DNA of 64,000 nt from the NCBI RefSeq assembly GCF_032118995.1, contig NC_092669.1:5145501-5209500 (forward strand). The letters run 5' to 3'. Under the pieces are notes generated by a model. The model saw nothing but the letters and a program-made list of their open reading frames with translations. It had not been told where the DNA came from and did no database searches. The position numbers and the translations under genes were made by a program. This document shows, one piece after another, positions 18,916-59,542 of the stretch; position 1 is the stretch's first letter; each line of letters starts with the position of its first letter. This stretch comes from Asterias amurensis. Its lineage: Eukaryota; Echinodermata; Asteroidea; Forcipulatida; Asteriidae.

Positions 18916-21793
18916 CTAGATGAAAAGATACACCAACCCAAGAACCACTACAAAGAAACTATGAGAGCTACAATGAACTAAAGTTGCTGAACTTGCTTCC
19001 GGAACCTCACACCCTAAACCACCTCCCTCATAAAAAGGACATTCTTCGTCATTCTGCATACAGTCGAGAATCTTAAGCCCTTCCCGCTTACCCGAGTCTA
19101 ACCCCCCTTCAACATAGCTGTAGTACATCGATGAAGTCGCTTCTCCTCCGAAGAAAACGCGGTCAACTCGACTTTCGAGCGCGTCGGTGCATTGCCTGGA
19201 AAGTTCGGTGGGCCAAGCGGAGTATGAACCCATGGTGAGTGGATTACTCGTCCAGCCTGAGATTAAGATATCCTCGATGTCTGGAATGCTATCCCCGTAC
19301 ATGTTGCGAAGAACTTGTTCTATTTCAGCCTTGGTTTGAGATACTGGCTGGGCGTCCACTCGTCTTGACTCGTCACCTTTTTTAGGAGAAACATAAAAAC
19401 AAGTGTGAAAGCGAAGCCCAGTCTAGTTTAAAGGCAGTGGACACTATTGGTAATTACTCAAAATATTTGTTAACATAAAACCTTACTTGGTAACAAGTAA
19501 TGGGGAGAGGTTGGTAATATAAAACATTGTGAGAAACGGCTCCCTCTGAAGTAACGAATTTCGTGAAAAAAGGGTAATTTTCCACGAATTTGATTTCGAA
19601 ACGTCAGATTTAGAGTTTAAGGTCTCGAAATCAAGCATCTGAACGCACACAACTTCGTGTGTCAAGGGTGTTTTTTCTTTGTTATTTTATGCATATGTTG
19701 AGACACAGCAAGTGAAAAGACTGGTCTTTCACAACTACGAATAGAGTCCAGTGTCTTTAAAGGAACACGTTGCCTTGAATCGGACGAGTTGGTCTTTGAA
19801 AAGCGTTTAAAACCTTTTGTTATGAAATGCATATATGATTAGATAGATAATTCAAAAGTAGAATACAATGATCTACACAAATTTGCCTCGGAATTGCGTG
19901 GTTTTCCTTTTACTTTGCGAACTAACACGGTCGGTCACTTATGGGAGTCACAAAGTTGACTCCCATAATGGCCGCTCGTGTTAGTCGACCGTGAGGTAAA
20001 AGGAAAACCACGCAATTTCGAGGCATACTTGTGTAGATCATTGTATTCTACTTATAAAACATCTTTCTAGCCATGTACATTTGATATCAAACGGTGACAA
20101 GCACTTTTTATAGACCAACCCATCTGATCCAAGGCAACGTGTTCCTTTAAGGGAACGACTGCAACTAGTCCATGTGTTGCCTGAATGGCATTTTTACTGG
20201 TAGCTTGGGAGGCATCCAATTGCAAAGCTTGCATTAACATGACCACCTTTGTAGCACAAGATACGTTTTCTAACATTGTTTTCCGATCCATGGGAGATTT
20301 CGTGACCATTTAATTATAAATGGCTTTCATCTTTTATGATTGCCTGGAAAGCCTGTAACTAGTAACCCTTTTTATACAAGATAATTAAACTACATATCTG
20401 TGTGTTCAAAAGTCAAGTCATCTTTTACGAGAAAGAAGACTCTATTCACAATGATCTAATCGGTTTTTTTTCCCCGTTTTTTGTTGGTTCAATATTGTCC
20501 TTTGTCCGTTGTTGGTTTTTTTTAGTGTTTTTTACATTTATTTTGTGATTTTTTGTAAACTGCTAATTTGCCTCTTAATAACGTTGTACTGCGATAAAGT
20601 GTAGTTTGGTTATAGGCAACTGTTGGGTGAGTGCTTTTAGTGGTTTGGTGTCTTATTGCTTCAACAACAGTTGAACTGGCTTGTTGCTTACCAGTTAAAG
20701 TCGCCAGCAATGTAGGCGTGCCGTCTGGATCATACCCCTCAGCCTGGAAGTTGAAGAAAGCTGGGAAGTAGCCCTGTCTCGGGCTAGCATGCATGATCCA
20801 CTGCGTGTCGTCCCAGAACTTAGATGGAAAGCTCAGGTAGATGTGCGTGTAGGCAGCTATGAGAGACTTCTTGATGACAACATCTTTCCATTCTGGTAGA
20901 GGTGGGATGAACTCAACTAAGTCATTCTGTAAGACACCGAGACTGAAGGTAACCAAAACTTGATCAGCTGTGAACACTGTGCCGTCCTCGCAGGTGACAA
21001 CCACCGAGGCAGGATCGCTCTGATCGATGGAGACTACTCGCTGATTTAAACGGGTGTGGTTGATGAACTCGGGCTCCTTTAAGAAACCAGCAACGACGTC
21101 AAAGATTGATATGAATCCTCTCGGATCCCTTAAGAAGTAGGTCTCACCAAAATCTTCTGCCTCCTGCGTAGACAATACCTCCGTAGACTCAGCGTACTCG
21201 AAGTCCATCTCGAACCACTCGATAAGTTTCTCTGTGTCGCTTCTCGGGCTCCAACCTCCGAGACGTAACGCTGACCGCTGCGACATGTCAGGGTTGCTTT
21301 TCTTGCTCTGTATTCTCGCCTTCAGAGAAAATAACTTTTCCATGGCCGGGTCAAGTTTGTCGTAGTCGCCAAACGCCTGATCTGTGACGTTGTTGCCGGT
21401 ATCATTACGGACTGTCATGCTCTCGTAATCACTTGCTTTACGGTCGAGGTTGAGCTCTTCGGCAAGTTGATAAGTCAAAGGCCTCACCGAACCGTAAGTC
21501 CATCCTGCTCCGATTTCAATGCTGCGATTAGCAAACGTAGTGGATCGAATACGGCCCCCAATCTGATCTGCTCCTTCTATAATGATAAAATCATCCATGC
21601 CTGCGTCATGGAGGATCCGCGAAGCCTGTAGACCCGACGCACCAGCACCCAAGACAAGAACTTTAGCGTGATTATCCGAAGAAGACTCCGCCCGACGATC
21701 GCGCCGACTTGCCCCGTGAACAGGCTGGGAAATCACGGTAAGGAAAACAACTGCGAGAATTGCAATCAAAGTTAAATTAATTGTAAATTCCAT
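18916..21793 (-). CDS. PAO-A: secreted flavin amine oxidase, polyamine-oxidase-like
   Basis: An FAD-dependent amine oxidase family member; polyamine oxidases oxidise spermine or spermidine to an aminoaldehyde and H2O2. Exons are 20692-21793 and 18916-19376, spliced in phase 1 (GTAAGC donor, AAAAAAG acceptor), giving 520 residues. Visible features: signal peptide 1-27 (hydrophobic, ending in HG-A), FAD Rossmann motif GAGASGLQAS near 49-58, GGR near 79-81, several N-glycosylation sequons (NRS, NDT, NVT, NHT), the C-terminal FAD motif FFGGEATS, and a hydrophobic tail FFVVVLGLVYLFI after a small-residue stretch, which suggests a GPI or membrane anchor. The residue matching maize PAO Lys300 is His317 (AYTHIYLSFP). 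The 1315-bp intron holds an R1 and an R2 MITE. The gene is intact and head to head with PAO-B. Substrate is not established. Confidence 0.9.
19430..19760 (+). mobile_element. R1 MITE in PAO-A intron
   Basis: It has the left end TTAAAGGCAGTGGACACTAT and the right end GAGTCCAGTGTCTTTAA. Its right TTAA (19757-19760) is also the left TTAA of the R2 element that follows. Confidence 0.87.
19757..20150. mobile_element. R2 fold-back MITE, complete
   Basis: A full palindromic element. The left end TTAAAGGAACACGTTGCC is the inverse of the right end GGCAACGTGTTCCTTTAA, and each arm is about 180 bp. The centre is itself a palindrome (GGGAGTCACAAAGTTGACTC). TTAA occurs at both borders. Confidence 0.88.
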
Positions 21794-21908
21794 TTTGCCT
21801 GCTTGGTATCACTGCGAAATACTCCCGCACTGTATCACTTCTAGGTCGAGTTGTGATATGGGTACAAGCCCTGCGTGTGGGACTTGGTTGTTTATGCCTG
21901 CCCAAGTA

Positions 21909-21945
21909 AATAAAGCACGACTATACTTTTTGTTTGAGCTTAGAT
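21909..21945 (-). promoter_or_regulatory. putative core promoter of PAO-A
   Basis: The minus strand reads AAAAAGTATAGTCGTG, then 20-30 bases later TGGGCAGGCATA. The same pair occurs upstream of PAO-B (26270-26302), and a recognisable variant (GTGGTATAGCC ... GGGCTGGCAT) upstream of PAO-D and PAO-F. The TATA-like core and spacing suggest a core promoter about 130 bases upstream of the ATG. This rests on paralogue conservation only. Confidence 0.4.
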
Positions 21946-22072
21946 CGTTGGTACAAAGACAGTCCTGAACTTTGAACCACTGGGGAACACTTGTTCCACT
22001 TGTTTTACTAGTTGACGAGCACGATCTGACAGTTCGTTGTTTGTTTTGGTCTGGGTTTTCTTCTTTGAAGCC

Positions 22073-22529
22073 GGTCATCTCGCCTCAAAACAAGCTCATC
22101 ATCACCCCAACCAAGTCGCCCAATTAAAGTCGCCAAAAACAAGCTCGCCCAGGGTGTTTACAATCTCGCCACAGCAAAGTCGTCCCAAAGTTAAGGCTAC
22201 CCGAACAAGATCGTCCGGGGTGTTTACAATCTCGCCCCTGACAAAAAGTTGCCCTCAGTCAAGTCGTCCCCGGACAATGTCGCTTCCAAACAGGCTCACC
22301 CCAAAAACTCGTCGTTGTAATTTATTATCGTTTGGTTGCCGCGCCCGTCCCTGAATGTGGCAAAAGACGAAGCTAAAGGGTGAATTTGCTTGGGGCGACA
22401 TTGTTGCAGGGGGACTCTGTGGGGCTACATTGTTTTGGGATGATTGCTGGAGCGACTCTGTCAGGGGTGAGATTGTAAACACTAAGGGATAGCTTGATTT
22501 GGGCCGACTTTGCTGGGGACGAGATGACC
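22073..22529. mobile_element. foldback-type element made of degenerate short repeats
   Basis: It begins GGTCATCTCG and ends with the inverse, CGAGATGACC. Both arms are made of imperfect reiterations of a CAAGTCGTCCCC-like motif and share GTGTTTACAATCTC followed by CCCTGACA. A short non-repetitive middle (about 22315-22370) separates them. This structure is that of foldback transposons, and no transposase frame is present. Confidence 0.6.
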
Positions 22530-22569
22530 AACATCCGTCTACATAAAATAAAACAGACAATATGATAGA

Positions 22570-22895
22570 AAAAGTGACCTCGGCAGCATTCGATTGTAAG
22601 GCCACGGTGGCCCCCTTTTCAAGGCCGTCGTGCCTTTGACATCTTCGGTAGAGCCGCTATCCCAATAGTGACTGGTTGGGGAGAACACGCGCACCGCTTG
22701 GTCGTGGCTTTGCCACTCGACTCGCAGTTGTGGTCTCCCCTTCAAGTCGCTTTGGGTCGCTGCTAGCCAGGAAGCTGTCCAAGCCACAGGCCTTGTCAAA
22801 ATGCAACGTCCACGGCGGAGATACTACACTGGTCATTGAGTATCCACTATTAATTTGCCTACAATCCGCGCTCATTCGGTCCCACCATTTGGCAA
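22570..22895 (+). repeat. PAO 5'-flank block shared with the array
   Basis: CTTGGTCGTGGCTTTGCCAC, GTGGTCTCCCCTTCAAGTC, CTGTCCAAGCCACA and CGGAGATACTACACTG match 37830-37975, 49415-49560 and 61025-61170 in the array. In each place the block lies upstream of a PAO gene, so it marks homologous 5' flank or a repeat carried along with the duplications. Confidence 0.6.
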
Positions 22896-22905
22896 ACTGT
22901 GGGTG

Positions 22906-23110
22906 CGTTCGTTTAGCTTCCCTGGGTCGACCCCGGTCTGCCCCGGTGCGTTCGAATAGCTTTGACGTCATTCTAGGGGTTCACCCGGGTCAGCCCTCAG
23001 TGCCCTGCTTGAGGAGAGGGTCACTTGGGGTGACCCGAGGTGCATGACGTTACCACGAGAGGGCGAGTGTGATCGTTCGATTAGTTCTTGTCAGGGGCTC
23101 ACCCAAGTGA
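22906..23110 (+). repeat. R3 MITE, right end decayed
   Basis: It begins GGGTGCGTTCGTTTAGCTTC. Internal GGGTTCACCC, GAGAGGGCGAGTGTGAT and GGGGCTCACCC match the other R3 copies. The expected inverted right end is missing. Confidence 0.65.
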
Positions 23111-23396
23111 ACACCCTGTGTAAAAAACCTCTTCTGATGGCGCCCTTTTTTAGGCGGACAGAATTCCCAGGGACGATCGGGACTTCCCTGGATTTTCCAG
23201 GGCATACTTTATGACATAAGAGGAGATGTATGGTCGTGTACATTGGAAAAGCTAAGAACTTCGCCAATTTGAACCATAGGTCGTTGGCTCAACCCCAAAT
23301 TGAATGAACTGACATTGTTTAGATCCCATGACTTTTAGACATATGCCTAGCTTTATTATGCTCGTACGACACTAACTCAAAATAGTGTCAAACGTG

Positions 23397-24136: not shown

Positions 24137-24339
24137 CTTTGGAATTCCTTGGATACCCCCCTTTGAAAAAAAAAATACAGATTTTATTCTTATTCAAGCG
24201 GAAACTAAAAACTCAATTAATCAGCAAATATTTATAAGCAGACTTTCTCTATTCCAACCTCAAGTTTACTTTATATAATAGCGATGCCAATATTTAAGTT
24301 GTAATTAAGTTGTAAAAGTGTTTTCATATTGTTGTTTTG

Positions 24340-24523: not shown

Positions 24524-24618
24524 TGTGGCGGGGGCAATTGACTTGGATCTGGATAAGTATTCTCAATGCTCTAATAAGAGCCAAACGAGAGGAAAAGACG
24601 ATGAAGAAATTTCAGTTT

Positions 24619-25012: not shown

Positions 25013-25024
25013 ATGTGAGACGCA

Positions 25025-26405: not shown

Positions 26406-28198
26406 ATGGAATTTACCCTTAAACTTTTAACTTTCTCTGCATATCTTGCAGTTGTTTTCTTTACCGTGATTTGCCAGTCTGTTCATGGGGCAAGTCGGCG
26501 CGATCGTCGGGCTGAGTCTTCTTCGGATAATCACGCTAAAGTTCTTATCTTGGGTGCTGGTGCGTCGGGTCTACAGGCTTCGCGGATCCTCCATGACGCA
26601 GGCATGGATGATTTTATCATTATAGAAGGAGCAGATCAGATTGGGGGCCGTGTCCGATCCACTACGTTTGCTAATCGCAGCATTGAAATCGGAGCAGGAT
26701 GGACTTACGGACCGGTAAGGCCTATGGTCTATAAACTTGTCAATGATCTCAACCTCGAACGTAGAGCAAGTAACTACGAAAGCCTTATATTCCGTAATAG
26801 TACCGGCGACAACGTCACTGATCGGGCATTTGGCGACTACGACAAACTCGAACCGGCCATGGAAAAATTATTTTCTCTGAAGGCGAGGATACAGAGCAAG
26901 AAAAGCAACCCTGACATGTCGCAGCGGTCAGCGTTACGTCTTGGAGGTTGGAACCCGAAAAGCGACACAGAGAAACTGATCGAGTGGTTTGACATTGACT
27001 TTGAGTTCGCTGCATCAACGGATGTATTATCCGCACAGGAGGCAGAGGAATTTGGTGATACCTACTTTTTAAGGGATCCGAGAGGATTCACTACAATCTT
27101 TGACGTCGTTGCTGGTTTCTTAAAGGAGCCCGAGTTCATCAACCACACCCGTTTAAATCAGAGAGTAGTCTCCATCGATCAGAGCGATCCTGCCTCGGTG
27201 GTTGTCACCTGCGAGGACGGCACAGTGTACACAGCTGATCAAGTCCTGGTCACCTTCAGTCTCGGTGTCTTACAGAATGACTTAGTTGAGTTCATCCCAC
27301 CTCTACCAGAATGGAAGGATGTTGTCATCAAGAAATCTCTCATAGCTGCCTACTCGCACATCTACCTGAGCTTTCCATCTAAGTTCTGGGACGACACGGA
27401 GTGGATCCTGCATGCTAGCCCGAGAAAAGGCTACTTCCCAGCTTTCCTCAACTTCCAGGCTGAGGGGTATGATCCAGACGGCACGCCTACATTGCTGGCG
27501 ACCTTAACTGGTAAGAAAGCAAGTCATTTTTAGTTTGTTGTTGCTTATAACGAAAAACAGTAAGCCACGAAAGCAGGCACAAAGCAGCTGACAAAAAACC
27601 TGCTGAAATAATGTTTGTCGAAATTAAAAGCTTCGTCCGCCGTGTAACGGTAATTCCGCTATTAAGCCACCTGAATAATATAACTCCAATGAACTAGTGC
27701 TTCGCTTTCAAACTTATTATTTCGTTTCTCTTAAAAGGTGACGAGTCAAGACGAGTGGAGGCCCAGCCAGTATCTCAAACCAAGGCTGAAATAGAACAAG
27801 TTCTTCGCAACATGTACGGGGATACCATTCCAGACATCGAGGATATCTTAATCTCAGGCTGGACGAGTAATCCACTCACCATGGGTTCATACTCCGCTTG
27901 GCCCACCGAACTCTCAAGGCAATGCACAGACGCGCTCGAAGGTCGAGTTGACCGCGTTTTCTTCGGTGGGGAAGCGACTTCACCAGTACATTACGGCTAC
28001 GTTGAAGGGGGGTTAGACTCGGGCAAGCGGGAAGGGCTTAAGATTCTCGACTGTATGAATAATTTCGAAGAATGTCCTTCGTATGAGGGAGGTGGTTTAG
28101 GGTGTGAGCTTCCCGAAGCAAATTCAGCAACTTTAGTTCACTGTAGCTCTTATAATTTCTTTGTACTTGTTACTGGGTTGGTATACTTGTTGATCTAA
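26406..28198 (+). CDS. PAO-B: secreted flavin amine oxidase, polyamine-oxidase-like
   Basis: Two exons, 26406-27510 and 27738-28198, joined by a 227-bp intron (GTAAGA / TTAAAAG) in phase 1, give 521 residues. Signal peptide about 1-28; FAD Rossmann motif GAGASGLQAS near 50-59; GGR 80-82; Trp99 (maize Trp60 equivalent) in GAGWTYG; His318 in AYSHIYLSFP where maize PAO has Lys300; WTSNPLTMGSYSAWP 410-424; FFGGEATS 443-450; Tyr456 in GYVEGG, matching maize Tyr439. The last 13 residues (FFVLVTGLVYLLI) form a hydrophobic tail after ANSATL, consistent with a GPI or membrane anchor. The first exon is co-linear with plant and animal polyamine oxidases. It is intact and is the only plus-strand copy. 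The amine-oxidase fold is certain; the substrate is not. Confidence 0.92.
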
Positions 28199-29600: not shown

Positions 29601-29619
29601 AGCAATTGTGAAATAATTT

Positions 29620-36755: not shown

Positions 36756-37571
36756 CTAGATCAGTAAATACACCAATCCAAAAACAAATAAGTTACAAAG
36801 GAAATTATAAGAACTACAGTGAACTAAAGTTGCTGAACTTGCTTCCGGAACCTCACAACCTAAACCACCTCCTTCATACAAAGGACATTCTTCGAAATTC
36901 TCCATACAGTCGAGAATCTTTAGCCCTTCCCGCTTGCCCGAATCTAACCCCCCTTCAACGTAGCCGTATTGTACTGCTGAGGTCGCTTCCCCTCCGAAGA
37001 AAACGCGGTCAACTCGACCTTCGAGCGCGTCAGTGCATTGCCTGGAGAGTTCGGTGGGCCAAGTTGAGTATGAACCCATGGTGAGTGGATTGCTCGTCCA
37101 GCCTGAGATTAAGATATCCTCGATGTCTGGAATGCTATCCCCGTACATGTTGCGAAGAACTTGTTCTATTTCAGCTTTGGTTTGAGATACTGGCTCGGCC
37201 TCAACTCGTCTTGACTCGTCACCTTTTAAGAGAAACGAAAAAAAAAACAAGTGTGACTAGAGATGGATAGTTCTAGAAGCCAATACAAGGTGTCCTGCCT
37301 AGTCTCTGCCTTTTATACCTGCAGCTCTTCTACTATTTCTGGCCCGCGAGATGACTGTCTGAAATTTCTGTCTACCACGTTGTGTTTCAGAAAGTGGGTT
37401 TACCTACAATTTGGCCGATCGGAGTCACAATAAAACAATTATATCCAAATGTCGAATTCAGGGATTTTGGCGAGTAGAAAAATCAAATGGACTATTGAAA
37501 ACAAATATTTTTAATACACTTTCTTACCGGTTAAAGTCGCCAGCAATGTAGGCGTGCCGTCTGGATCATAC
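36756..37571 (-). pseudogene. PAO-C: type I PAO gene lacking nearly all of exon 1
   Basis: Exon 2 (36756-37222, 467 bp) is open and complete, with FFGGEATS, GYVEGG and the longer type I tail ending FVFGLVYLLI. The 305-bp intron and its splice sites remain, but only the last 44 or so bases of exon 1 survive (37528-37571). After GGATCATACC the sequence jumps directly into an R3 MITE that in unit 2 lies 2.3 kb further upstream. The start codon, signal peptide and FAD Rossmann motif are gone, so no oxidase can be made. Confidence 0.88.
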
Positions 37572-37572
37572 C

Positions 37573-37798
37573 TGGTAAAAAAAAACGCCACGCACCGGGG
37601 TCGACCCAGGGGAGCTAAACGAACGCACCCATTATAATGGTATATAGGGTGCGTTCGTTTAGCTTCCCTGGGTCAACCCCGGTGTGTGGCGGTTTTTTTT
37701 CCAGGACGAACGTGGGTAATGTTCTGCACACGTTTGTTCTGGAAAAAAACCCACGCCACACACCGGGGTCGACCCAGGGGAGCTAAACGAACGCACCC
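37573..37798. mobile_element. two R3 MITEs in tandem, first one cut by the PAO-C deletion
   Basis: The partial first element (to 37630) ends GCTAAACGAACGCACCC. After ATTATAATGGTATATA comes a complete 152-bp fold-back element at 37647-37798 with ends GGGTGCGTTCGTTTAGC and GCTAAACGAACGCACCC. Confidence 0.8.
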
Positions 37799-38689
37799 AT
37801 AGTTACCAACGGACTCGCACTCGTGTTCGCTCTTGGTTGTGGCTTTTGCCACTCGACAAGCGCGCGTGGTCTCCCCTTCAAGTCACTTGGGATCGCGGCT
37901 CGACAAATCTGTCCAAGCCACAATTGGCCTTGACAAAAGGCTAACCGTTCACAACGGAGATACTACACTGATCATAAGTGAGTTAGTCTTGTGACTGAGG
38001 AGACTGGACCCCTGTCTTTATTATTCACGAGCCTCGAAGTGTGATGCAGATGATCAGGCTAGGGATCGAGTTAGTCTTGATTGGGGAAATAGTTGTTGTG
38101 TTATTTATCGATAGAGGGCGCAAGGCTATATGAGACTGGATAAGTTTCAACTCCTTTTAAATAGGTTGGGTAAAGGTTACCCAGATTCCGCCTATACAAA
38201 AGAAAAACACTTGCCCTCAAAGTTTGAGTTTAGTAAGCCTGTTTTATTATACACAAACCCTTTCTTTAAATCTTTCCAACCGCTAGTTGTTTAACCTATA
38301 ATTATGTCGGACATTTCGTCTAATAATTATTTTTTATGTAAGAAACCAGACAACACATTCAAACTTAAAATCCTTCCCATAACCTCCCTAATGAAACACT
38401 TAATTTTTGTGCTGCAATAACCCTTAGTACATAGAAGGAAAAAAATATGCCTCAAAGCGGCACCCAAAACAAAATGATGGTAAATATTTACAGCAGTAAA
38501 AAAAAAAAACATACATTTTTAGGTGACCGTTTTTAAACCACTGAACGCTCGCAAAAATATTAATTACTGTTGTTTGAATTTTTAGTGGGGGTAAACTGCT
38601 ACAACTGTTTTACTAATGCTTGTACGAGTACAAAAGTAATGTAATGACCCACACGAAGTTGAAAACGTGAGTTTAACTGTAGTATATTC
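37799..38689. other. PAO 5'-flank block and AT-rich spacer (unit 1)
   Basis: It holds the block shared with 22570-22895. The rest is non-coding. A minus-strand frame at 38327-38512 recurs in the other units only through unit identity. Confidence 0.45.
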
Positions 38690-39830: not shown

Positions 39831-39836
39831 TTTATT
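39831..39836 (-). terminator. polyadenylation signal overlapping the PAO-D stop
   Basis: The minus strand reads ATTTAATAAAG, so AATAAA overlaps the TAA stop codon. The same arrangement occurs at 51421-51426 (PAO-F) and 63031-63036 (PAO-H), but not in type I genes. Use of the signal is inferred. Confidence 0.45.
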
Positions 39837-41873
39837 AAATCAAAAAGTATACCAACCCAGTAACAAGTACAAAGAAATTATAAGAGCTACAGTGAACTAA
39901 AGTTGCTGAACTTGCTTCCGGAAGCTCACAACCTAAACCACCTCCTTCATACAAAGGACATTCTTCGAAATTCTCCATACAGTCGAGAATCTTAAGCCCT
40001 TGCCGCTTGCCCGAATCTAACCCCCCTTCAACATAGCTGTAGTAAACCGGTGAAGTCGCTTCCCCTTTCGAAGAAAACGCGGTCAACTCGACCTTCGAGC
40101 GCGTCGGTGCATTGCCTTGAGAGTTCGGTGGGCCAAGCGGAGTATGAACCCATGGTGAGTGGATTACTCGTCCAGCCTGAGACTAAGATATCCTCGATGT
40201 CTGGAATGTTATCCCCGTACATGTTGCGAAGAACTTGTTCTATTTCAGCTTTGGTTTGAGATACTGGCTGGGCGTCCACTCGTCTTGACTCGTCACCTTT
40301 TAAGAGAAACGTAAAAACAAAATGTGAAAGCGAAGCCCTAATTAAAGAAAAAGAAGGGGAAAAAACACGTTAAACAGACGCTTGAAAGGTCAGAGTCAGT
40401 GGTTAATCAACGTTGGTAAAACGATAACGTGCTAATATCAGGAAAGTCGTGCAGTGTAAAATGTTGCTTACAACGTTAGTAACGTAGTAAGAATACGGGT
40501 AACCTAGCGTCCGCTAAGCCTTGGGAATTGTTGGGCAGTAAAAAAGGCTGATTTCCAACGTTGGCACAACGTAGTATGCCGACGTTGGGACGTCGGCCCG
40601 ACAAAGTCCGACGTCTTGGTAGAGTTGGGTCAACGTTGGCCCAACATTTTTGACGTTAGATTGATGTAAAAACAAAGTAACCGCAACGTCACTACCAACC
40701 GTCAACAAAAAATGTGTACATTTGCCAACGTTGGGCCGACGTCATGTTAGCTGCAAAGATTTGCTTACCGGTTAAAGTCGCCAGCAGTGTGGGCGTGCCA
40801 TTTGGATCATACCCCTCGGACTGGAAGTTGAAGAAAGCTGGGTAGTAGCCTTTTCTCTGGCTAGCATGCAGGATCCACTCCTTGTTGTCCCAGAACTTCG
40901 TTGGAAAGCTCAGGTAGATGTGCGTGTAGGCAGCTAGGAGTGACTTCTTGATGACAACATCCTTCCATTCTGGTAGAGGTGGGATGAACTCAACTAAGTC
41001 ATTCTGTAAGACACCGAGACTGAAGGTGACCAGGACTTGATCGGCGGTGTACACTGTGCCATCTTCGCAGGTGACAACCACCGAGGCAGGATCGCTCTGA
41101 TCGATGGAGACTACTCTCTGATTCAAACGGGTGTGGTTGATGAACTCGGGCTCCTTTAAGAAACCAGCAACGACGTCAAAGATTGCAATGAATCCTCTCG
41201 GATCCTTTAAGAAGTAGGTCTCACCAAAATCTTCCGCCTCATGCGTGGACAATAGCTCAGAGGGTTCAGCGTACTCAAAGTCAATCTCGAACCACTCGAT
41301 GAGTTTCTCTGTGTCACTTTTCGGGCTCCAACCTCCGAGACGTAACGCTGACCGTTGCGACATGTCAGGGTTGCTTTTCTTGCTCTGTATCCTCGCCTTC
41401 AGAGAAAATAACTTTTCAAAGGCCGGTTCAAGTTTGTCGTAATCGTTATCTGCCTGATCTGTGACGTCGCTGCCGGTAGCATTCCGAACTATATAGCTCT
41501 CATAGTCACTTGCTCTACGGTCGAGGTTTAGATCCATGGATAGTTGATAAGTCTCAGGCCTTACCGGCCCGTAGGTCCATCCTGCTCCGAGTTCTATGGT
41601 ACGATTAGCAAACGTAGTGGATCGGACACGGCCCCCAATCTGATCCGCTCCTTCTATAATGATAAAGTCATCCATGCCTGCGTCATGGAGGATCCGCGAA
41701 GCCTGTAGACCCGACGCACCGGCACCTAAGATAAGAACTTTAGCGTGATTATCCGAAGAAGACTCAGCCCGACGATCGCGCCTACTTGCCCCATGCACAG
41801 GCTGGGAAATCACGGTAAAGAAAACAACTGCGAGAATGGAAGAAAATAGTACAAGTTTCAGTGTAAACTCCAT
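39835..41873 (-). pseudogene. PAO-D: type II PAO gene with a frameshift in exon 2
   Basis: Exon 1 (40769-41873, 1105 bp) is open with signal peptide, GAGASGLQAS, GGR and His318 in AYTHIYLSFP. Exon 2 (39835-40296) is 462 bp where PAO-F has 461: one extra base near 40065 shifts the frame at VDRVFF, so FFGGEATS and everything after it, needed to hold FAD, is lost and translation stops soon after. Both splice sites are normal, and the 472-bp intron carries the ACGTTGG-type repeat. Otherwise it is nearly identical to PAO-F. A recent mutation or a sequencing or assembly error are both possible. Confidence 0.82.
40530..40745. repeat. ACGTTGG-type short repeats in type II intron
   Basis: AACGTTGG and its inverse CCAACGTT occur many times at 8-30 base spacing, with GACGTCGG variants. 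The same block fills the PAO-F (52115-52335) and PAO-H (63725-63945) introns and is absent from type I introns. Confidence 0.7.
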
Positions 41874-46057: not shown

Positions 46058-47922
46058 CTAGATCAGTAAATACACCAATCCAAAAACAAATAAGTTACAA
46101 AGGAAATTATAAGAACTACAGTGAACTAAAGTTGCTGAACTTGCTTCCGGAACCTCACAACCTAAACCACCTCCTTCATACAAAGGACATTCTTCGAAAT
46201 TCTCCATACAGTCGAGAATCTTTAGCCCTTCCCGCTTGCCCGAATCTAACCCCCCTTCAACGTAGCCGTATTGTACTGCTGAGGTCGCTTCCCCTCCGAA
46301 GAAAACGCGGTCAACTCGACCTTCGAGCGCGTCAGTGCATTGCCTGGAGAGTTCGGTGGGCCAAGTTGAGTATGAACCCATGGTGAGTGGATTGCTCGTC
46401 CAGCCTGAGATTAAGATATCCTCGATGTCTGGAATGCTATCCCCGTACATGTTGCGAAGAACTTGTTCTATTTCAGCTTTGGTTTGAGATACTGGCTCGG
46501 CCTCAACTCGTCTTGACTCGTCACCTTTTAAGAGAAACGAAAAAAAAACAAGTGTGACTAGAGATGGATAGTTCTAGAAGCCAATACAAGGTGTCCTGCC
46601 TAGTCTCTGCCTTTTATACCTGCAGCTCTTCTACTATTTCTGGCCCGCGAGATGACTGTCTGAAATTTCTGTCTACCACGTTGTGTTTCAGAAAGTGGGT
46701 TTACCTACAATTTGGCCGATCGGAGTCACAATAAAACAATTATATCCAAATGTCGAATTCAGGGGTAGAAAAATCAAATGGACTATTGAAAACAAATATT
46801 TTTAATACACTTTCTTACCGGTTAAAGTCGCCAGCAATGTAGGCGTGCCGTCTGGATCATACCCCTCAGCCTGGAAGTTGAAAAAAGCTGGGAAGTAGCC
46901 TTTTCTCGGGCTAGCATGCAGGATCCACTCCGTGTCGTCCCAGAACTTAGATGGAAAGCTCAGGTAGATGTGTGAGTAGGCAGCTATGAGAGACTTCTTG
47001 ATGAGAACATCCTTCCATTCTGGTAGAGGTGGGATGAACTCAACTAAGTCATTCTGTAAGACACCGAGACTGAAGGTAACCAAAACTTGATCAGCTGTGA
47101 ACACTGTGCCGTCCTCGCAGGTGACAACCACCGAGGCAGGATCGCTCTGATCGATGGAGACTACTCTCTGATTCAAACGGGTATGGTTGATGAACTCGGG
47201 CTCCTTTAAGAAACCAGCAACGACGTCAAAGATTACTTTGAATCCTCTCGGATCCTTTAAGAATTGGGTATCACCAAAATCCCTTGCCTCACTTGCAGAC
47301 AATACCTCCGTAGCTTCAGCAAACTCAAAGTCTATGTCGAACCACTCGATGAGTTTCTGTGTGTCACTTTTCGGGCTCCAACCTCCGAGACGTAACGCTG
47401 ACCGCTGCGACATGTCAGGGTTGCTTTTCTTGTTCTGTATCCTCGCCTTCAGAGAAAATAACTTTTCCATGGCCGGTTCGAATTTGTCGTAGTCGCCAAA
47501 TGCCTGATCGGTGACGTTGTTACCGGTGTCATTACGGATTGTAATGCTGTCGTAGTCATTTGTTCTTCGGTCGAGGTTGACGCTTTGACAAGTTGGTGGA
47601 CTGTAGGCCTTACCGGCCCGTATGTCTATCCTGCTCCGAGTTCTATGGTACGATTAGCAAACGTAGTGGATCGGACACGGCCCCCAATCTGATCTGCTCC
47701 TTCTACAATGATAAAATCATCCATGCCTGCGTCATGGAGGATCCGCGAAGCCTGTAGACCCGACGCACCGGCACCCAAGATAAGAATTTTAGCGTGATTA
47801 TCAGAAGAAGACTCTGCCCGACGATTGCGCCGACTTGCCCCATACACAGGCTGGGAAATCACGGTAAGGAAAACAACTGCGAGAATAGGAGACAAAGTTG
47901 AAAGTTTAAGTTTAAATTCCAT
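46058..47922 (-). pseudogene. PAO-E: type I PAO gene with a stop and a frameshift in exon 1
   Basis: The exons are 46819-47922 and 46058-46524. Exon 1 is 1104 bp against 1105 in PAO-G. The conserved Trp of GAGWTYG is a TAG stop near 47625 (TGG in PAO-G), and one base is missing near 47582, shortly downstream. Exon 2 and the 294-bp intron are intact, and His is present in AYSHIYLSFP. The protein would end after about 98 residues. All other features match PAO-G closely, so the decay is recent. Confidence 0.88.
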
Positions 47923-48848: not shown

Positions 48849-49077
48849 CAACATGCAGTGACGCACTCACCTGAACGACTCAATTGGAAGTCAAGGCAAC
48901 CTCCCACCTTTTCGTCATTGTGTCACTGGTTCCTCTCTGCGTTGTACACGATGTTAGAAGGTGCATGCTGGAGTGGGACCAGTGAAGGAACCCTGGGCTA
49001 GAGGCTGGTTCCAAAATCGTCGACCACAGTAGTCAACCAATGGTCGACCTGCCCGGGTTCGAGTCCAGGTGCGTTCG

Positions 49078-49386
49078 TTTAGCTTCCCTGGGTCGACCCC
49101 GGTGTATGGCGGGTTTTTTCCCAGGACGAGCGTGTGCAGATAGTTACCCACGTTCGTCCTGGTAAAAAAAAACCGCCACGCACCGGGGTCGATCCAGGGG
49201 AGCTAAACGAACGCACCCATTATAATGGTATATAGGGTGCGTTCGTTTAGCTTCCCTGGGTCAACCCCGGTGTGTGGCGGGTTTTTTTCCAGGACGAACG
49301 TGGGTAATGTTCTGCACACGTTTGTTCTGGAAAAAAACCCACGCCACACACCGGGGTCGACCCAGGGGAGCTAAACGAACGCACCC
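49078..49386. mobile_element. two R3 fold-back MITEs in tandem (unit 2)
   Basis: The elements at 49078-49218 and 49235-49386 each have ends GGTGCGTTCGTTTAGC / GCTAAACGAACGCACCC and a TTTTTTTCCAGGACGAACG centre. They are separated by ATTATAATGGTATATA. A B-box-like GGGTTCGAGTCC lies immediately to the left. Confidence 0.82.
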
Positions 49387-50289
49387 ATAGTTACCAACGG
49401 ACTCGCACTCGTGTTCGCTCTTGGTTGTGGCTTTTGCCACTCGACAAGCGCGCGTGGTCTCCCCTTCAAGTCACTTGGGATCGCGGCTCGACAAATCTGT
49501 CCAAGCCACAATTGGCCTTGACAAAAGGCTAACCGTTCACAACGGAGATACTACACTGATCATAAGTGAGTTAGTCTTGTGACTGAGGAGACTGGACCCC
49601 TGTCTTTATTATTCACGAGCCTCGAAGTGTGATGCAGATGATCAGGCTAGGGATCGAGTTAGTCTTGATTGGGGAAATAGTTGTTGTGTTATTTATCGAT
49701 AGAGTGCGCAAGGCTATATGAGACTGGATAAGTTTCAACTCCTTTTAAATAGGTTGGGTAAAGGTTACCCAGATTCCGCCTATACAAAAGAAAAACACTT
49801 GCCCTCAAAGTTTGAGTTTAGTAAGCCTGTTTTATTATACACAAACCCTTTCTTTAAATCTTTCCAACCGCTAGTTGTTTAACCTATAATTATGTCGGAC
49901 ATTTCGTCTAATAATTATTTTTTATGTAAGAAACCAGACAACACATTCAAACTTAAAATCCTTCCCATAACCTCCCTAATGAAACACTTAATTTTTGTGC
50001 TGCAATAACCCTTAGTACAGAGAAGGAAAAAAATATGCCTCAAAGCGGCACCCAAAACAAAATGATGGTAAATATTTACAGCAGTAAAAAAAAAAAACAT
50101 ACATTTTTAGGTGACCGTTTTTAAACCACTGAACGCTCGCAAAAATATTAATTACTGTTGTTTGAATTTTTAGTGGGGTAAACTGCTACAACTGTTTTAC
50201 TAATGCTTGTACGAGTACAAAAGTAATGTAATGACCCACACGAAGTTGAAAACGTGAGTTTAACTGTAGTATATTCGTATAGGTTTTAA
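49387..50289. other. PAO 5'-flank block and spacer (unit 2)
   Basis: Same contents as 37799-38689. No gene was recognised. Confidence 0.45.
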
Positions 50290-50510
50290 ACAAACTCTAA
50301 AGGCAAACTACCATAAGATGAAAATCATTTTAGCATGTAAAAACGTATTTTCATGACATAGTTTTACTCATTTCTCAAAAATTTGGGCACCTCAGCATCT
50401 GATATTTTAAGGTAAGCTTTCTATTATTATTATCTTTAAACGGTGTAAGTTTAAGGTAAATCTGTGGACATTGTGTTTTGTGTTACTAAAAGTACCCAAA
50501 TCCTTTAAAG
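50290..50510 (-). mobile_element. R5 MITE copy (unit 2)
   Basis: Copy of 38690-38935. Confidence 0.6.
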
Positions 50511-50712
50511 GCAACATTTCCCTCTTTTTTTTGGGGGGGGGGGGGGCTGTTTGGTCATTTTAATCCTTTACAAAAAATGAAGATACGTGTTTTGAAATTC
50601 AAAGGTGTGGTTGCGTTCTTAAGTAGCGCCGAAAATCTGGGGCAATTTTTTTGTCTTTTTGATTGCATGGCCCTGTCCCCAGATTCGGCTCAGGCTAGCT
50701 TGGTCCGCGAGG

Positions 50713-50957
50713 TTTAGCTGCACACTACGCGAGCAAATACGTGAACGTGAACGTCGGACAATAATATTGTGTTGTTTTGGGGTGACGTCGCAACTTTGGG
50801 CCTATCGCATGCTCACGTATGACCTCTGCGCGCACGTACGTACCTGATGTGAAAAGTTGTAACTTCAGTATTCTAAAAAATGTGAGATTTTACCGATACA
50901 ATATTTTCTGGCGTTCGCGTTCAACGTTCATGTTCACGCGAAATGTGCAGCTAAACC
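50713..50957. mobile_element. MITE with GGTTTAGCTGCACA ends (unit 2)
   Basis: Copy of 39123-39367. Confidence 0.72.
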
Positions 50958-51091
50958 ACCCGTACGCGATTAGGGCTTAGACGAGATTAGCTGCCGGACA
51001 AAGCCGAATAGAAAGCCGAAGCCGTGGTTTCGAAAATGGCAAATGTCCACACGAACTATGTCCACGCACGAAGAATGTCATAGGATTGGAC

Positions 51092-51129
51092 AATCTGAGA
51101 AGCATTACTACTGTAACGCTTCTCAGATT
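51092..51129. other. 3'-flank hairpin of PAO-F
   Basis: Same as 39502-39539, with a 12-bp perfect stem. Confidence 0.7.
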
Positions 51130-51424
51130 CAAATGTTTGGACACAACCGTGTTAATTTTGAACCTAAGATCCTTCGTAGTGATTTGTTTTCCAGGCTCCT
51201 TTTATACTATCGAAAGCTACTGTAAACTTCTAACCATAAGTTATGCAAATAACGCTTGTAATTATTACTAACTATACACATACCTCCTCTTTAAAATGTC
51301 TAATCTATTTGCGAAACTGTTACTTATACAAACTGTTCCTCTACTCAAGATAAAATTGGTTATGTGGAACCGTTTACCGTTTAGATTCCACCGGCTTAAG
51401 CCCTACCTCTGTATTGGAACTTTA

Positions 51425-53461
51425 TTAAATCAAAAAGTATACCAACCCAATAACAAGTACAAAGAAATTATAAGAGCTACAGTGAACTAAAGTTGCTGAA
51501 CTTGCTTCCGGAAGCTCACAACCTAAACCACCTCCTTCATACAAAGGACATTCTTCGAAATTCTCCATACAGTCGAGAATCTTAAGCCCTTGCCGCTTGC
51601 CCGAATCTAACCCCCCTTCAACATAGCTGTAGTAAACCGGTGAAGTCGCTTCCCCTCCGAAGAAAACGCGGTCAACTCGACCTTCGAGCGCGTCGGTGCA
51701 TTGCCTTGAGAGTTCGGTGGGCCAAGCGGAGTATGAACCCATGGTGAGTGGATTACTCGTCCAGCCTGAGACTAAGATATCCTCGATGTCTGGAATGTTA
51801 TCCCCGTACATGTTGCGAAGAACTTGTTCTATTTCAGCTTTGGTTTGAGATACTGGCTGGGCGTCCACTCGTCTTGACTCGTCACCTTTTAAGAGAAACG
51901 TAAAAACAAAATGTGAAAGCGAAGCCCTAATTAAAGAAAAAGAAGGGGAAACAACACGTTAAACAGACGCTTGAAAGGTCAGAGTCAGTGGTTAATCAAC
52001 GTTGGTAAAACAATGACGTGCTAATATCAGGAAAGTCGTGCAGTGTAAAATGTTGCTTACAACGTTAGTAACGTAGTAAGAATACGGGTAACCTAGCGTC
52101 CGCTAAACCTTGGGAATTGTTGGGCAGTAAAAAAGGTTGATTTCCAACGTTGGCACAACGTAGTATGCCGACGTTGGGACGTCGGCCCGACAAAGTCCGA
52201 CGTCTTGGTAGAGTTGGGTCAACGTTGGCCCAACATTTTTGACGTTAGATTGATGTAAAAACAAAGTAACCGCAACGTCACTACCAACCGTCAACAAAAA
52301 ATGTGTACATTTGCCAACGTTGGGCCGACGTCTGTTAGCTGAAAAGATTTGCTTACCGGTTAAAGTCGCCAGCAGTGTGGGCGTGCCATTTGGATCATAC
52401 CCCTCCGACTGGAAGTTGAAGAAAGCTGGGTAGTAGCCTTTTCTCGGGCTAGCATGCAGGATCCACTCCTTGTCGTCCCAGAACTTCGTTGGAAAGCTCA
52501 GGTAGATGTGCGTGTAGGCAGCTAGGAGTGACTTCTTGATGACAACATCCTTCCATTCTGGTAGAGGTGGGATGAACTCAACTAAGTCATTCTGTAAGAC
52601 ACCGAGACTGAAGGTGACCAGGACTTGATCGGCGGTGTACACTGTGCCATCTTCGCAGGTGACAACCACCGAGGCAGGATCGCTCTGATCGATGGAGACT
52701 ACTCTCTGATTCAAACGGGTGTGGTTGATGAACTCGGGCTCCTTTAGGAAACCAGCAACGACGTCAAAGATTGCAATGAATCCTCTCGGATCCTTTAAGA
52801 AGTAGGTCTCACCAAAATCTTCCGCCTCATGCGTGGACAATAGCTCAGAGGGTTCAGCGTACTCAAAGTCAATCTCGAACCACTCGATGAGTTTCTCTGT
52901 GTCACTTTTCGGGCTCCAACCTCCGAGACGTAACGCTGACCGCTGCGACATGTCAGGGTTGCTTTTCTTGCCCTGTATCCTCGCCTTCAGAGAAAATAAC
53001 TTTTCAAAGGCCGGTTCAAGTTTGTCGTAATCGTTATCTGCCTGATCTGTGACGTCGCTGCCGGTAGCATTCCGAACTATATAGCTCTCATAGTCACTTG
53101 CTCTACGGTCGAGGTTTAGATCCATGGATAGTTGGTAAGTCTCAGGCCTTACCGGCCCGTAGGTCCATCCTGCTCCGAGTTCTATGGTACGATTAGCAAA
53201 CGTAGTGGATCGGACACGGCCCCCAATCTGATCCGCTCCTTCTATAATGATAAAGTCATCCATGCCTGCGTCATGGAGGATCCGCGAAGCCTGTAGACCC
53301 GACGCACCGGCACCTAAGATAAGAACTTTAGCGTGATTATCCGAAGAAGACTCAGCCCGACGATCGCGCCTACTTGCCCCATGCACAGGCTGGGAAATCA
53401 CGGTAAAGAAAACAACTGCGAGAATGGAAGAAAATAGTACAAGTTTCAGTGTAAACTCCAT
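51425..53461 (-). CDS. PAO-F: type II secreted flavin amine oxidase, intact
   Basis: The exons are 52357-53461 (1105 bp) and 51425-51885 (461 bp), with a 471-bp intron in phase 1, giving 521 residues. Features: signal peptide to about 28, GAGASGLQAS, GGR, GAGWTYGPVRPETYQL, sequons NRT, NAT and NHT, His318 in AYTHIYLSFPTKFW, GSYSAWP, FFGGEATS, and Tyr456 here in SYVEGG rather than GYVEGG. The tail FFVLVIGLVYFLI is hydrophobic. The start was chosen at MEFTLKLV because it aligns with all paralogues; an in-frame ATG further upstream lies in what should be 5' UTR. Exon 1 reads open into the intron for about 85 codons, but the splice sites are conserved. An intact counterpart of PAO-D. Confidence 0.92.
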
Positions 53462-54105
53462 TTTGCCTGCCTGGTACCACTGCGAAATACTGCCACACCT
53501 TTGTAACATTTCTAGGTCGAGTTGGGATTTAGCAAGTCAATACGATATATCACAGTGCTCTGCCTATTGGAAACTTGGTCATAACATGGAGGTCATATAT
53601 GGACAGAGATGGTTGTTATGCATGCCAGCTCATCACTATTGCAAGGCTATACCACTTTGTGTTTGGACTTAGACCGTGACTATAAAGAATGAAAACGAAC
53701 CTTGAATCGACCCACTAAATCACTTTTGCACGACCGGATATATAGATCAGCACCCTGTTGGTTTTAAACCGTGGGATGATGCTCCAAATTCTGCTTTTCA
53801 GTGGTCTACCCTACACAACTACTTACATTTGGTCTCAAAATTTGAAGAAAATTCAACTTACCACCCAAAAAAAGTCGTCAAGCACAAAACTTACGCAGTA
53901 TGGATTTATTCGCGAAATGAAGCACAATAATACAGCGAGAATAAATGGCTGAACGTGCAAGAAAAAAATAGATGACTTATAAGCTCGGCCATCATAGCGC
54001 ATATGACATGCATGTGGATGTGTGGACCAATGAAAGAGCTTGTTTCGAAGTCCTGTGGTTTTGTGACCCTTTTCGAAACGACGGCGTCTGCGTTGGATTC
54101 AGCTT
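53462..54105. other. PAO-F 5' flank and end of unit 2
   Basis: Same contents as 41874-42518. Confidence 0.5.
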
Positions 54106-54689
54106 CACAAACAATGGAACCCCTATGAGCGGGCTAAGCACAGGCTAATCATACTAATATTCTGGTAGCACCATGTAATGCTTTACAAGGTGCTGTGGCG
54201 CAATTTTGCTGCCGATCGGACCGGGAACACCGGGGCGAAATCCTTCTCTTTTCGATAAGTACACTGGGTTTCTTTTATATGCGTTACATAACACATTGGA
54301 CCAACGGCTTTACGTCCCATCCGAAGGACGAAGCAATGGTTAAGTGACATCATAATTTTGTAAAGTTAAGAAAACTCCTTAACATCTTTTGACCCAGAGG
54401 TGCTCGGTCCAAGTTGTCAAACATAATGACAATGAAGTAAACTTAATCACAAACAATGGAACCCCATGAGCGGGCTAAGCACGGGCTAATCATACTAATA
54501 TTTTGTAACCAATGGAACCTACTTTATATCTTTGCCTGGTCAAACATAATTTAAAGGGGCATTACAGTATTACATTTAGTTTTAGCCCGCAAACGTTAAG
54601 TTAAAAAAGCAAATAAAGACTAGGAAATAGAGTGCTCTCATAGTGGTGCACAAGGTTTGATACACACATCTCAACGCGTGTTCAGGCTG

Positions 54690-54970
54690 TTAAGTCAACT
54701 TCTTAGTTTCTGTAGGTCGACTTGGTGAGATAAATTATGTCAGTTAGTCGACTGATCATTTTCTCCAAGTCGACTTGGTGAGATGGATTATGTCAGTAAG
54801 TCGATTTTCCATTTTATATAAGTCGACTTGGTGAGATAAATTATGTTGTTAAGTCAACTGATTGTTTTGAATAAGTCGACTTAGCAAGATAAAATATGTC
54901 GGTAAGTCAACTTATTCCACGAAATAACTCGTCTTGATGAGATAAATTATATGGGATGGCACTCCTGGAG
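54690..54970 (+). repeat. R8 AGTCGACTT tandem array (unit 3)
   Basis: Copy of 34083-34383. Confidence 0.75.
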
Positions 54971-57090
54971 ATCCGTAGTCACCGTACTTACAACGTAGAG
55001 CAATGGCGTACAGTACTAACATAGATCTGAATTTAGCTTATACTCGGCGTGTACTTGTTTCCCTACTAGTCCTCCTCATTGCTGAATGATCAACATGGAA
55101 TTAAAGGCGAAGTTTCGCTGAGATGGCCACCTTCTTCAGTGATTCATATGACTTTTAATTAGGTGAGAAAATAGAAGCAGATAAAGACGAACATTGGTTT
55201 TGTTTTGATCAAACACCGAGAAGTATAGGCTATTTGAGGGTGCTCGGACGGCGTCCCGGACGGCACAGTAGGTTTTAACCAACCATGATAAAACGGTAAG
55301 CGTTGTGTGAAAATCATTCCTTTTCAAAATAAGTATTTATTTATTGTACAACTATGTTATAAACTTTATACATCATAAGTAGGTTTTAAGTTGATCATTT
55401 CAAAAGCAGTAACTTGTGCAATTTCCTTACATTGAATCGTTTCAATGACTACCCCCTCGTCTTTGAACAGGCTGGTCCTGAAGAGGGTGCAATATAAATT
55501 CAATACAGTATTAATAATTTATAAACAAAATAATAAGCCTTCACATTTGTTTAATAGATTTTCCTTTAATCAAACTTTGTTAAATTTTCTTGTTCTTTTT
55601 GCTTCTTTAGAATACAGCAAATTCTGAAACATTCACCGAATGGTCGTGGATCCAGTAAAAGATTTCCACTCGCTGTGTTGTATTCCTTATTTCCTCGATA
55701 CAGCCTACAGGTAGAATTAATTTTGTACTAAACTCATTATGTTTTAGTCAACATTTGCGAGGGGCTTGGGTTCGTTTTGCAGTTCCACCGATTTGCCTTT
55801 GTTTTATATTAGATTTAAAGCAGTCTAAAAATTAACAGCCCGCTCTGTACGAAAATCATTATCTTAAAATAAAGCAAGCCTTTCATAAAATGCACACACT
55901 ATTCTTGACGCTTAACAATTATCATAACGTATATACATTTACTTTGATGTTAATAAGCATCAATGTTTCTTGCTCCCCGATAAGTAGGCCTATCCAAAGT
56001 CTTTCAGGAATATAACTTGATAATGTAAACATAAATCATGGCTAGTATGAAGTTGTGAATTATCAAAGTAACAAATAATCAAATCGCATTGAAAATTTCA
56101 AAGTTTATTTATACTGGATATACAATATTCTTGTGAGTAACTCTTAGGGCAGTTTCGAGATCTGCAGCGAAGATGATAGAAAGGAAGTCAACAATAATAA
56201 TTAGTGTATGATTTATGACAATATCCTAAACAAGTTAAACAAATCGTTCCTACGCTTCATTTCTTTTTTATAAAGCTTCAATTTTATTCCTTTTCAAGGC
56301 GTTTTCAACAAATCTTGAGAACAAAGCAATGTGCAATATTTGTTTTTTACACCAGGCTTTTACTCCCAGAAACCGAACACCTTGAGTTTGTTCACAAACT
56401 CTCAATGTCTAGTTGATACTTCTTCTTCTTCTTCTTCTTCTGAATCTCCCATGTCCGCTAATAAAAATACCTTTCCCAAATGAACTTGAAACTTCGCACA
56501 TAGTTAGATATTCATTAGGAGAAGAAAAATGTATATTTACGTCATAATGACGTCATCCATTCTTGAGTTATGAAAATTTTATTTAAAAGTTTATTATTAA
56601 AAAAATCATAACTTTTGATCTACATTATGGATTCTTACAATAGATACATCATCGGAAAGGTCGTTAAAAACTCCGTAAACGCCTCGCAGACATGACCCCA
56701 TTTTGATCTTGTCTTCCGGTTCAAAATTGAGGTTGAAAGTTAAAAAATTCATGTATAAAGAACTACGAAATTCCCCTATTGGTCGTATGTATAAAGATTG
56801 TACACACACAACATGTGTAATGTACACATACGTGTAGTGTATGCATTTGTGTTCATCCAGCCCCATAAGCGCGTGGTGTAGTTTCTGTACATCATGAAAT
56901 GGGTATGTTTGTGACCATGTAGGCCAAAGTGATTGTTTGCTTTGATTGGTGCTTTTTTTATTGTGACTAGTAAAGTGGACATACTTGTAAAAAAAAAAAT
57001 TTCACACATCCGAACACCTAGAGTTTGTTTTACAAACTCTAAATTTCTAGTTTCTATGTTAAATTCGCTGATCGCCTTTGAGATATCGAC
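54971..57090. other. spacer of unit 3, no gene supported
   Basis: Same contents as 34384-36477, including the exon-like segment at about 55610-55711 with its acceptor retained. Confidence 0.45.
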
Positions 57091-57130
57091 GAAAATGCAG
57101 AGAATTACCGACAGTAACGCTGCTTAGATT
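57091..57130. other. 3'-flank hairpin of PAO-G
   Basis: Same as 36478-36515. Confidence 0.5.
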
Positions 57131-57191
57131 TAAAATTTAGGACATAGAAACTTACTCCGAATTGAAAGGTTTTCAAAACTGCCTATTTAAT

Positions 57192-57510
57192 AAAGGAATT
57201 GGGTATTTTTTGGTACACAAAACACAATGTCCACAGATTTACATTTAACTTACACCGTTTGAAGATAATGATTGTAGAGAATTCACCTTTAGTTTTAGTT
57301 TATGAGGTGCTATAGTTTTTGAGAAATGTGTAAAACAATGTCATGCATGGAAATACGTTTTTACATGCTAAAATAATTTCCTTCATATAATCATTGAGAC
57401 TAAAATTATTTTCATTACATTGTTTTACTCATTTCTCAAAAACCAACAGCACCTCGGCAAGTAATATTTTCAGGGAAGCTTTCTACAATCATTATCTTCA
57501 AAGCTACTGT
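57192..57510. mobile_element. R5 fold-back MITE (unit 3)
   Basis: Copy of 45565-45878. Confidence 0.7.
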
Positions 57511-57681
57511 AGGCATCTTGTTTGCTAAAGTTTGCCATTAAAACAATTGTTACTAAACGTATACGGTCAACATAAAGAAACTGTTATAATGTTCCGGAAG
57601 TACAATGTTAATCAGTCTACCATTCAGTCTCCATCTGCATAGGCCGTATGGTGAGGCATTCTCCAAATCGAGGAAACCTTA

Positions 57682-59542
57682 CTAGATCAGTAAATACACC
57701 AATCCAAAAACAAATAATTTACAAAGGAAATTATAAGAACTGCAGTGAACTAAAGTTGCTGAACTTGCTTCCGGAACCTCACAACCTAAACCACCTCCTT
57801 CATACAAAGGACATTCTTCGAAATTCTCCATACAGTCGAGAATCTTTAGCCCTTCCCGCTTGCCCGAGTCTAACCCCCCTTCAACGTAGCCGTAATGTAC
57901 TGCTGAGGTCGCTTCCCCTCCGAAGAAAACGCGGTCAACTCGACCTTCGAGCGCGTCGGTGCATTGCCTGGAAAGTTCGGTGGGCCAAGTTGAGTATGAA
58001 CCCATGGTGAGTGGATTACTCGTCCAGCCTGAGATTAAGATATCCTCGATGTCTGGAATGCTATCCCCGTACATGTTGCGAAGAACTTGTTCTATTTCAG
58101 CTTTGGTTTGAGATACTGGCTCGGCCTCAACTCGTCTTGACTCGTCACCTTTTAAGAGAAACGAAAAAAAAAAGTGTGACTAGAGATGGATAGTTCTAGA
58201 AGCCAATACAAGGTGTCCTGCCTAGTCTCTGCCTTTTATACCTGCAGCTCTTCTACTATTTCTGGCCCGCGAGATTTCTGTCTACCACGTTGTGTTTCAG
58301 AAAGTGGGTTTACCTACAATTTGGCCGATCGGAGTCACAATAAAACAATTATATCCAAATGTCGAATTCAGGGATTTTGGCGAGTAGAAAAATCAAATGG
58401 ACTATTGAAAACAAATATTTTTAATACACTTTCTTACCGGTTAAAGTCGCCAGCAATGAAGGCATGCCGTCTGGATCAAACCCCTCAGCCTGGAAGTTGA
58501 GGAAAGCTGGGAAGTAGCCCTGTCTCGGGCTAGCATGCAGGATCCACTCCGTGTCGTCCCAGAACTTAGTTGGAAAGCTCAGGTAGATGTGTGAGTAGGC
58601 AGCTATGAGAGACTTCTTGATGACAACATCCTTCCATTCTGGTAGAGGTGGGATGAACTCAACTAAGTCATTCTGTAAGACACCGAGACTGAAGGTAACC
58701 AAAACTTGATCAGCTGTGAACACTGTGCCGTCCTCGCAGGTGACAACCACCGAGGCAGGATCGCTCTGATCGATGGAGACTACTCGCTGATTTAAACGGG
58801 TATGGTTGATGAACTCGGGCTCCTTTAAGAAACCAGCAACGACGTCAAAGATTGCTTTGAATCCTCTCGGATCCTTTAAGAATTGGGTATCACCAAAATC
58901 CCTTGCCTCACTTGCAGACAATACCTCCGTAGCTTCAGCAAACTCAAAGTCTATGTCGAACCACTCGATGAGTTTCTGTGTGTCACTTTTCGGGCTCCAA
59001 CCTCCGAGACGTAACGCTGACCGCTGCGACATGTCAGGGTTGCTTTTCTTGCTCTGTATCCTCGCCTTCAGAGAAAATAACTTTTCCATGGCCGGTTCGA
59101 ATTTGTCGTAGTCGCCAAATGCCTGATCGGTGACGTTGTTACCGGTGTCATTACGGATTGTAATGCTGTCGTAGTCATTTGTTCTTCGGTCGAGGTTGAT
59201 GTCTTTGACAAGTTGGTGGACTGTAGGCCTTACCGGCCCGTATGTCCATCCTGCTCCGAGTTCTATGGTACGATTAGCAAACGTAGTGGATCGGACACGG
59301 CCCCCAATCTGATCTGCTCCTTCTATAATGATAAAATCATCCATGCCTGCGTCATGGAGGATCCGCGAAGCCTGTAGACCCGACGCACCGGCACCTAAGA
59401 TAAGAACTTTAGCGTGATTATCAGAAGAAGACTCTGCCCGACGATTGCACCGACTTGCCCCATGCACAGGCTGGGAAATCACGGTAAGGAAAACAACTGC
59501 GAGAATAGGAGACAAAGTTGAAAGTTTAAGTGTAAATTCCAT
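57682..59542 (-). CDS. PAO-G: type I secreted flavin amine oxidase, intact
   Basis: The exons are 58438-59542 (1105 bp) and 57682-58148 (467 bp), with a 289-bp intron in phase 1, giving 523 residues. Features: signal peptide to about 28 with an extra Cys32 (ASRCNRR), GAGASGLQAS, GGR, GAGWTYGPVRPTVHQL, sequons NRT, NDT, NVT and NHT, His318 in AYSHIYLSFPTKFW, FFGGEATS and GYVEGG. The type I tail has two extra residues and ends FVFGLVYLLI. The start is MEFTLKLS by alignment; an upstream in-frame ATG (MYQAGK) falls in the conserved 5' UTR. This is the only intact type I gene in the window. Confidence 0.91.

Follow-up and report, generated by a model that had tools for sequence, protein, structure and literature searches.

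The window, the whole stretch of 64,000 nt analysed here from Asterias amurensis contig NC_092669.1, contains a tandem array of eight copies of one two-exon gene (PAO-A to PAO-H), which extends from 18.9 to 63.5 kb. PAO-A, PAO-B, PAO-F and PAO-G are intact and encode proteins of 520–523 aa, PAO-D and PAO-E are broken in frame, PAO-C is truncated and PAO-H is cut at the window end. PAO-A (520 aa; minus strand, 18916–21793) consists of exon 1 (21793–20692) and exon 2 (19376–18916), and PAO-B (521 aa; plus strand, 26406–28198) of exon 1 (26406–27510) and exon 2 (27738–28198). PAO-F (521 aa; 51425–53461) and PAO-G (523 aa; 57682–59542) both lie on the minus strand, with exons at 53461–52357 and 51885–51425 and at 59542–58438 and 58148–57682, respectively. 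The introns of the PAO genes are of the GT-AG type. Exon 1 ends with TTAACTG, followed by GTAAG, and exon 2 starts after AAAAG with GTGACGAG. The spliced product reads L-T-G-D-E-S-R-R across the junction, where the maize PAO counterpart is TVTDEESRR.

PAO-C, PAO-D and PAO-E are pseudogenes. PAO-C (minus strand, 36756–37570) retains exon 2 plus ~16 codons from the end of exon 1, and ends at a breakpoint at 37570/37571. PAO-D (minus strand, 39835–41873) has an open exon 1 and a frameshift in exon 2 near 40066, while exon 1 of PAO-E (minus strand, 46058–47922) contains a frameshift and a TGG to TAG change. This premature stop (within 47590–47660) hits exactly the codon equivalent to the active-site Trp60 of maize PAO, and the codon is kept in PAO-G. 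PAO-H (minus strand, 63035–63496) is represented by exon 2 only, since its exon 1 would fall past the window end. The right half of the array arose by a recent tandem segmental duplication (37571–64000) with a period of about 11.6 kb, in which 37571–52390 matches 49158–64000 with 98.1% identity over 14.9 kb. Each duplicated unit also contains a 322-bp element that is nearly its own reverse complement (49068–49388, 60676–60997 and 37571–37808); the deletion that truncates PAO-C ends at 37571, inside this element.

The left end of the window carries cytochrome P450 exons of the CYP3 kind (plus strand, 4100–11900), and the best solved matches of the heme-binding exon (about 11660–11840) are human CYP3A4 and CYP3A5. 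Two matches to the Rfam Histone3 3′ UTR stem-loop exceed the gathering score (1890–1935, minus strand; 6506–6552, plus strand), and no histone reading frame was noticed among the translated ORFs near them.

Family placement and predicted localization

The predicted PAO protein matches the Pfam family PF01593 with 191.4 bits (cut-off 19.8) over residues 54–466 and contains the N-terminal FAD motif GAGxSG...E...GGR. A full-length match together with this motif places the proteins, as judged from sequence, in the PF01593 flavin amine oxidase superfamily. Among the solved relatives, maize PAO scores highest (169.8 bits) and leads SMOX (71.4 bits) by 98 bits, followed by PAOX (52.8 bits). In a tree with 16 prokaryotic relatives, the window copies and maize PAO form a separate clade with 100/99 support.

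In the 2020 PAO tree, animals occur only in Clade II (PAOX/SMOX), and the members of Clade I come from plants, fungi and red algae (PMC7576179). Clade II proteins have His at position 62 (maize numbering) and Thr at 439, and position 298 is mostly occupied by Thr, Asn or Val (PMC7576179). This signature is absent from the window proteins, which have Tyr at all three positions. They instead contain the pattern described as the Clade I "aromatic sandwich" (PMC7576179), with Tyr298, Tyr403 and Tyr439 accompanied by Glu170 in all four intact copies. The PF01593 score, the best match to maize PAO, the tree clade and the pattern of Tyr298, aromatic 403 and Tyr439 together point to Clade I. Because our tree covers the window copies, maize PAO and prokaryotic relatives, with fungi, red algae and animal Clade II outside it, this placement within the eukaryotes is a strong lead and not a proof, and the absence of Lys300 makes the proteins a Clade I-like variant instead of a standard Clade I member. 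The PAO coding part is interrupted here by a single intron, and plant ZmPAO1-like genes contain eight (PMC7576179). An origin by horizontal transfer, or by retroposition with subsequent intron gain, is possible.

All four intact copies begin with a hydrophobic, signal-like N-terminus that ends in VHGA, as judged by eye, and share conserved N-glycosylation sequons. Each ends in a hydrophobic tail without residues beyond it, which resembles a GPI-anchor signal. The proteins are probably secreted, with a GPI anchor that would keep them at the cell surface.

The flavin-side lysine position and the rest of the active site

The earlier note had read His, in every readable copy, at the position of maize Lys300, the lysine that holds a water next to flavin N5, and this reading holds. 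Each of the six readable copies carries CAC at this position: PAO-A (20845–20843, minus strand), PAO-B (27357–27359, plus strand), PAO-D (40922–40920, minus strand), PAO-E (46972–46970, minus strand), PAO-F (52510–52508, minus strand; His318) and PAO-G (58591–58589, minus strand). In PAO-C the site is deleted. When protein F is aligned with maize PAO (1b37) by phmmer (E 7.7e-49), His318 stands opposite Lys300, and WKDVVIKKSLLAAYTHIYLSFPTKFW and WKVRAIYQFDMAVYTKIFLKFPRKFW are aligned without a gap and with top posterior marks. The gap-free alignment spans from VYTADQVLVTFSLGVLQ through SFPTKFW, and in the entry of the maize K300M mutant (3kpf) Met is opposite the same His318. AlphaFold2 applied to exon 1 alone gave a poor model (pLDDT 42), and the site geometry is therefore based on alignment to the solved structures, in which the Lys300/His318 correspondence is unambiguous. 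A KK pair precedes the site by 7–8 residues and had been named as a possible source of the flavin lysine. The same gapless alignment sets this pair against maize Tyr-Gln, so that it cannot be the N5 lysine.

The other residues named in the earlier note are also confirmed, and its maize positions agree with the published ones (PMC7576179). Maize Glu62 is opposite Tyr101, and the equivalents of Trp60, Tyr298 and Tyr439, as well as those of Glu170, Trp393 and Glu430, are retained. Glu62 varies widely among PAOs, with Ala, His, Gln or Phe in its place and Tyr in diatoms (PMC7576179); the change to Tyr alone therefore says little. Phe403 and Thr402 of maize are replaced by Tyr and Ser, both of which are common in Clade I (Table 1 of PMC7576179). 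The less surely aligned region contains Glu120, which is retained, and the positions of Glu121 and Glu124, which are Lys and Ser. These three maize residues are located at the tunnel entrance.

Rarity and retention of the histidine

Lys occupies position 300 in all but one of the 420 PAO and MAO sequences in Table 1 of PMC7576179 (420 being our sum of its rows), including every Clade I member, and the sole non-Lys entry is an archaeal Val. The text of that study describes Lys300 as "strictly conserved in all PAOs", and Lys is found in all plant subfamilies (PMC6341606). For the superfamily, "nearly all" members are stated to carry the N5-water Lys (PMC12272882), which makes this residue usual but not strictly defining for PF01593. 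Among the prokaryotic relatives fetched with the window/maize alignment, 43 of 43 have Lys, as do 13 of 14 further genome-search loci (some of which overlap) and all five relatives on plasmids (one each from a haloarchaeon, a member of the Bacillota and a rhizobium, and two from cyanobacteria). The one remaining locus has Gln in a short and weak match of 37 aa and is probably not comparable. No His was seen in these 43, 14 and 5 relatives, which leaves a prokaryotic source of the His without support. A search for viral relatives found none, and neither an animal Clade I PAO nor a natural Lys to His change was found in the open-licence literature.

The six His-bearing copies are recent paralogues (DNA identity of 99.2% between D and F and 97.1% between E and G; protein identity of about 86–89% among the intact copies) and thus represent about one ancestral substitution, not six independent events. 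The best reading is that Lys changed to His once, ahead of the local duplications, and was then retained. All six pairs of intact copies show dN/dS values of 0.27–0.38, which rules out an array of pseudogenes with random change for A, B, F and G; four lineages have retained the His under purifying selection. The segment of aa 271–390, which holds the His site, is more constrained (dN 0.026–0.052) than the whole protein (dN 0.057–0.069). Within the intact copies the His codon is invariant, and the preceding codon varies among ACG, TCG and TCA. The weight of the observation comes from this retention under constraint and not from the copy number.

Functional readings and comparison with known systems

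The reading that we prefer, to which we give an even chance, is that the intact genes encode functional secreted FAD amine oxidases of the maize type (Clade I of Salvi and Tavladoraki), with a probable GPI tether and with His in place of the N5 Lys. Such enzymes would bind FAD and would act on a polyamine or another amine. The His, as hydrogen-bond donor or in protonated form, would act at the N5 water as Lys does elsewhere, by analogy with the His in O2 activation by GMC oxidases such as glucose oxidase, in which protonated His516 is proposed to stabilize superoxide (PMC3541233). His is not sufficient for this reaction, since the GMC His is also present in pyranose and cellobiose dehydrogenases, which react poorly with O2 (PMC3541233). 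At the equivalent site of MAO-A a polar Gln works, with about wild-type turnover in K305Q (PMC8009472), which indicates that Lys is not strictly needed and, by analogy, may support the oxidase reading. Replacement of the Lys can nevertheless be costly, because kcat is 200-fold lower in K305M and 100-fold lower in K305S; Arg (K305R) is not tolerated (PMC8009472). His is shorter than Lys and the N5 water may be out of its reach, which counts against an oxidase. A loss of oxidase activity through the Lys to His change is possible but is not implied.

Unlikely, but the best surviving of the alternatives, is that the proteins are amine dehydrogenases, in which the amine would reduce the flavin and, without Lys, a slow reaction with O2 would let the electrons pass to a quinone or a protein acceptor. 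MAO-A K305M offers a precedent, as it is reduced normally by amine, is reoxidized slowly by O2 and is reoxidized by quinones (PMC8009472), and in nicotine-degrading relatives the positioning of the N5 Lys separates oxidase from dehydrogenase (PMC12272882). However, K305Q demonstrates that a polar residue is an adequate substitute, the Clade I enzymes that plants export to the extracellular space are known to be H2O2-producing oxidases (PMC7576179), and an acceptor partner is not visible within the 64-kb window. We consider it improbable that amine oxidation has been lost and that the fold is kept for binding or signalling. Changes have affected both the N5 Lys and Glu62 on the substrate side, and pseudogenes (C, D and E) are frequent in the array, but the retention of Trp60, Glu170, Tyr298, Trp393 and Tyr439 in all four intact copies and the tighter constraint on aa 271–390 argue against a dead enzyme. 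Least probable of all is that His318 and Tyr101 form a new pocket for another amine or another stereochemistry and have no role toward O2: both residues are within the substrate/flavin cavity and Glu62 is of key importance in the catalytic site of maize PAO (PMC7576179), but Glu170 is retained, as is the aromatic sandwich, and both flank the catalytic tunnel in the maize enzyme.

Beyond the oxidase reading itself, we suggest tentatively, at somewhat less than an even chance, that the array represents an animal extracellular branch of Clade I, absent from the published PAO tree, in which a natural N5 His serves either as an O2-activating site or as a dehydrogenase switch. This would place a secreted ZmPAO-like enzyme in animals, for which the 2020 tree of life has only Clade II. 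In textbook accounts the N5 lysine determines how flavin amine oxidases react with O2, and the published tests have mainly used engineered mutants. Because the Lys to His change here is natural and selected, with the remaining site intact, it offers a direct test of the N5-lysine idea.

The closest known system is maize ZmPAO1 (1b37; 3kpf), with about 38% identity over the enzyme. The window proteins share with it and with the remaining Clade I PAOs (from plants, fungi and red algae) a probable signal peptide, Trp60, Glu170, Tyr298, Trp393, Tyr439 and an aromatic residue at 403. They differ from ZmPAO1 by His for Lys300 and Tyr for Glu62, and the window genes differ by their animal host, one intron in place of eight, and a hydrophobic C-terminal tail. 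The animal PAOX and SMOX proteins of Clade II have the same fold, Pfam family and occurrence in animals, but score much lower against the window protein (71 bits for SMOX and 53 for PAOX versus 170 for maize PAO). The MAO-A Lys305 variants are changed at the same position; in contrast to the natural His, they are engineered, and His is not among the four that were made (M, S, Q and R; PMC8009472). GMC oxidases such as glucose oxidase (His516) likewise have a His near flavin N5 that is proposed to aid O2 activation, but belong to another family, so that the comparison is an analogy of mechanism only.
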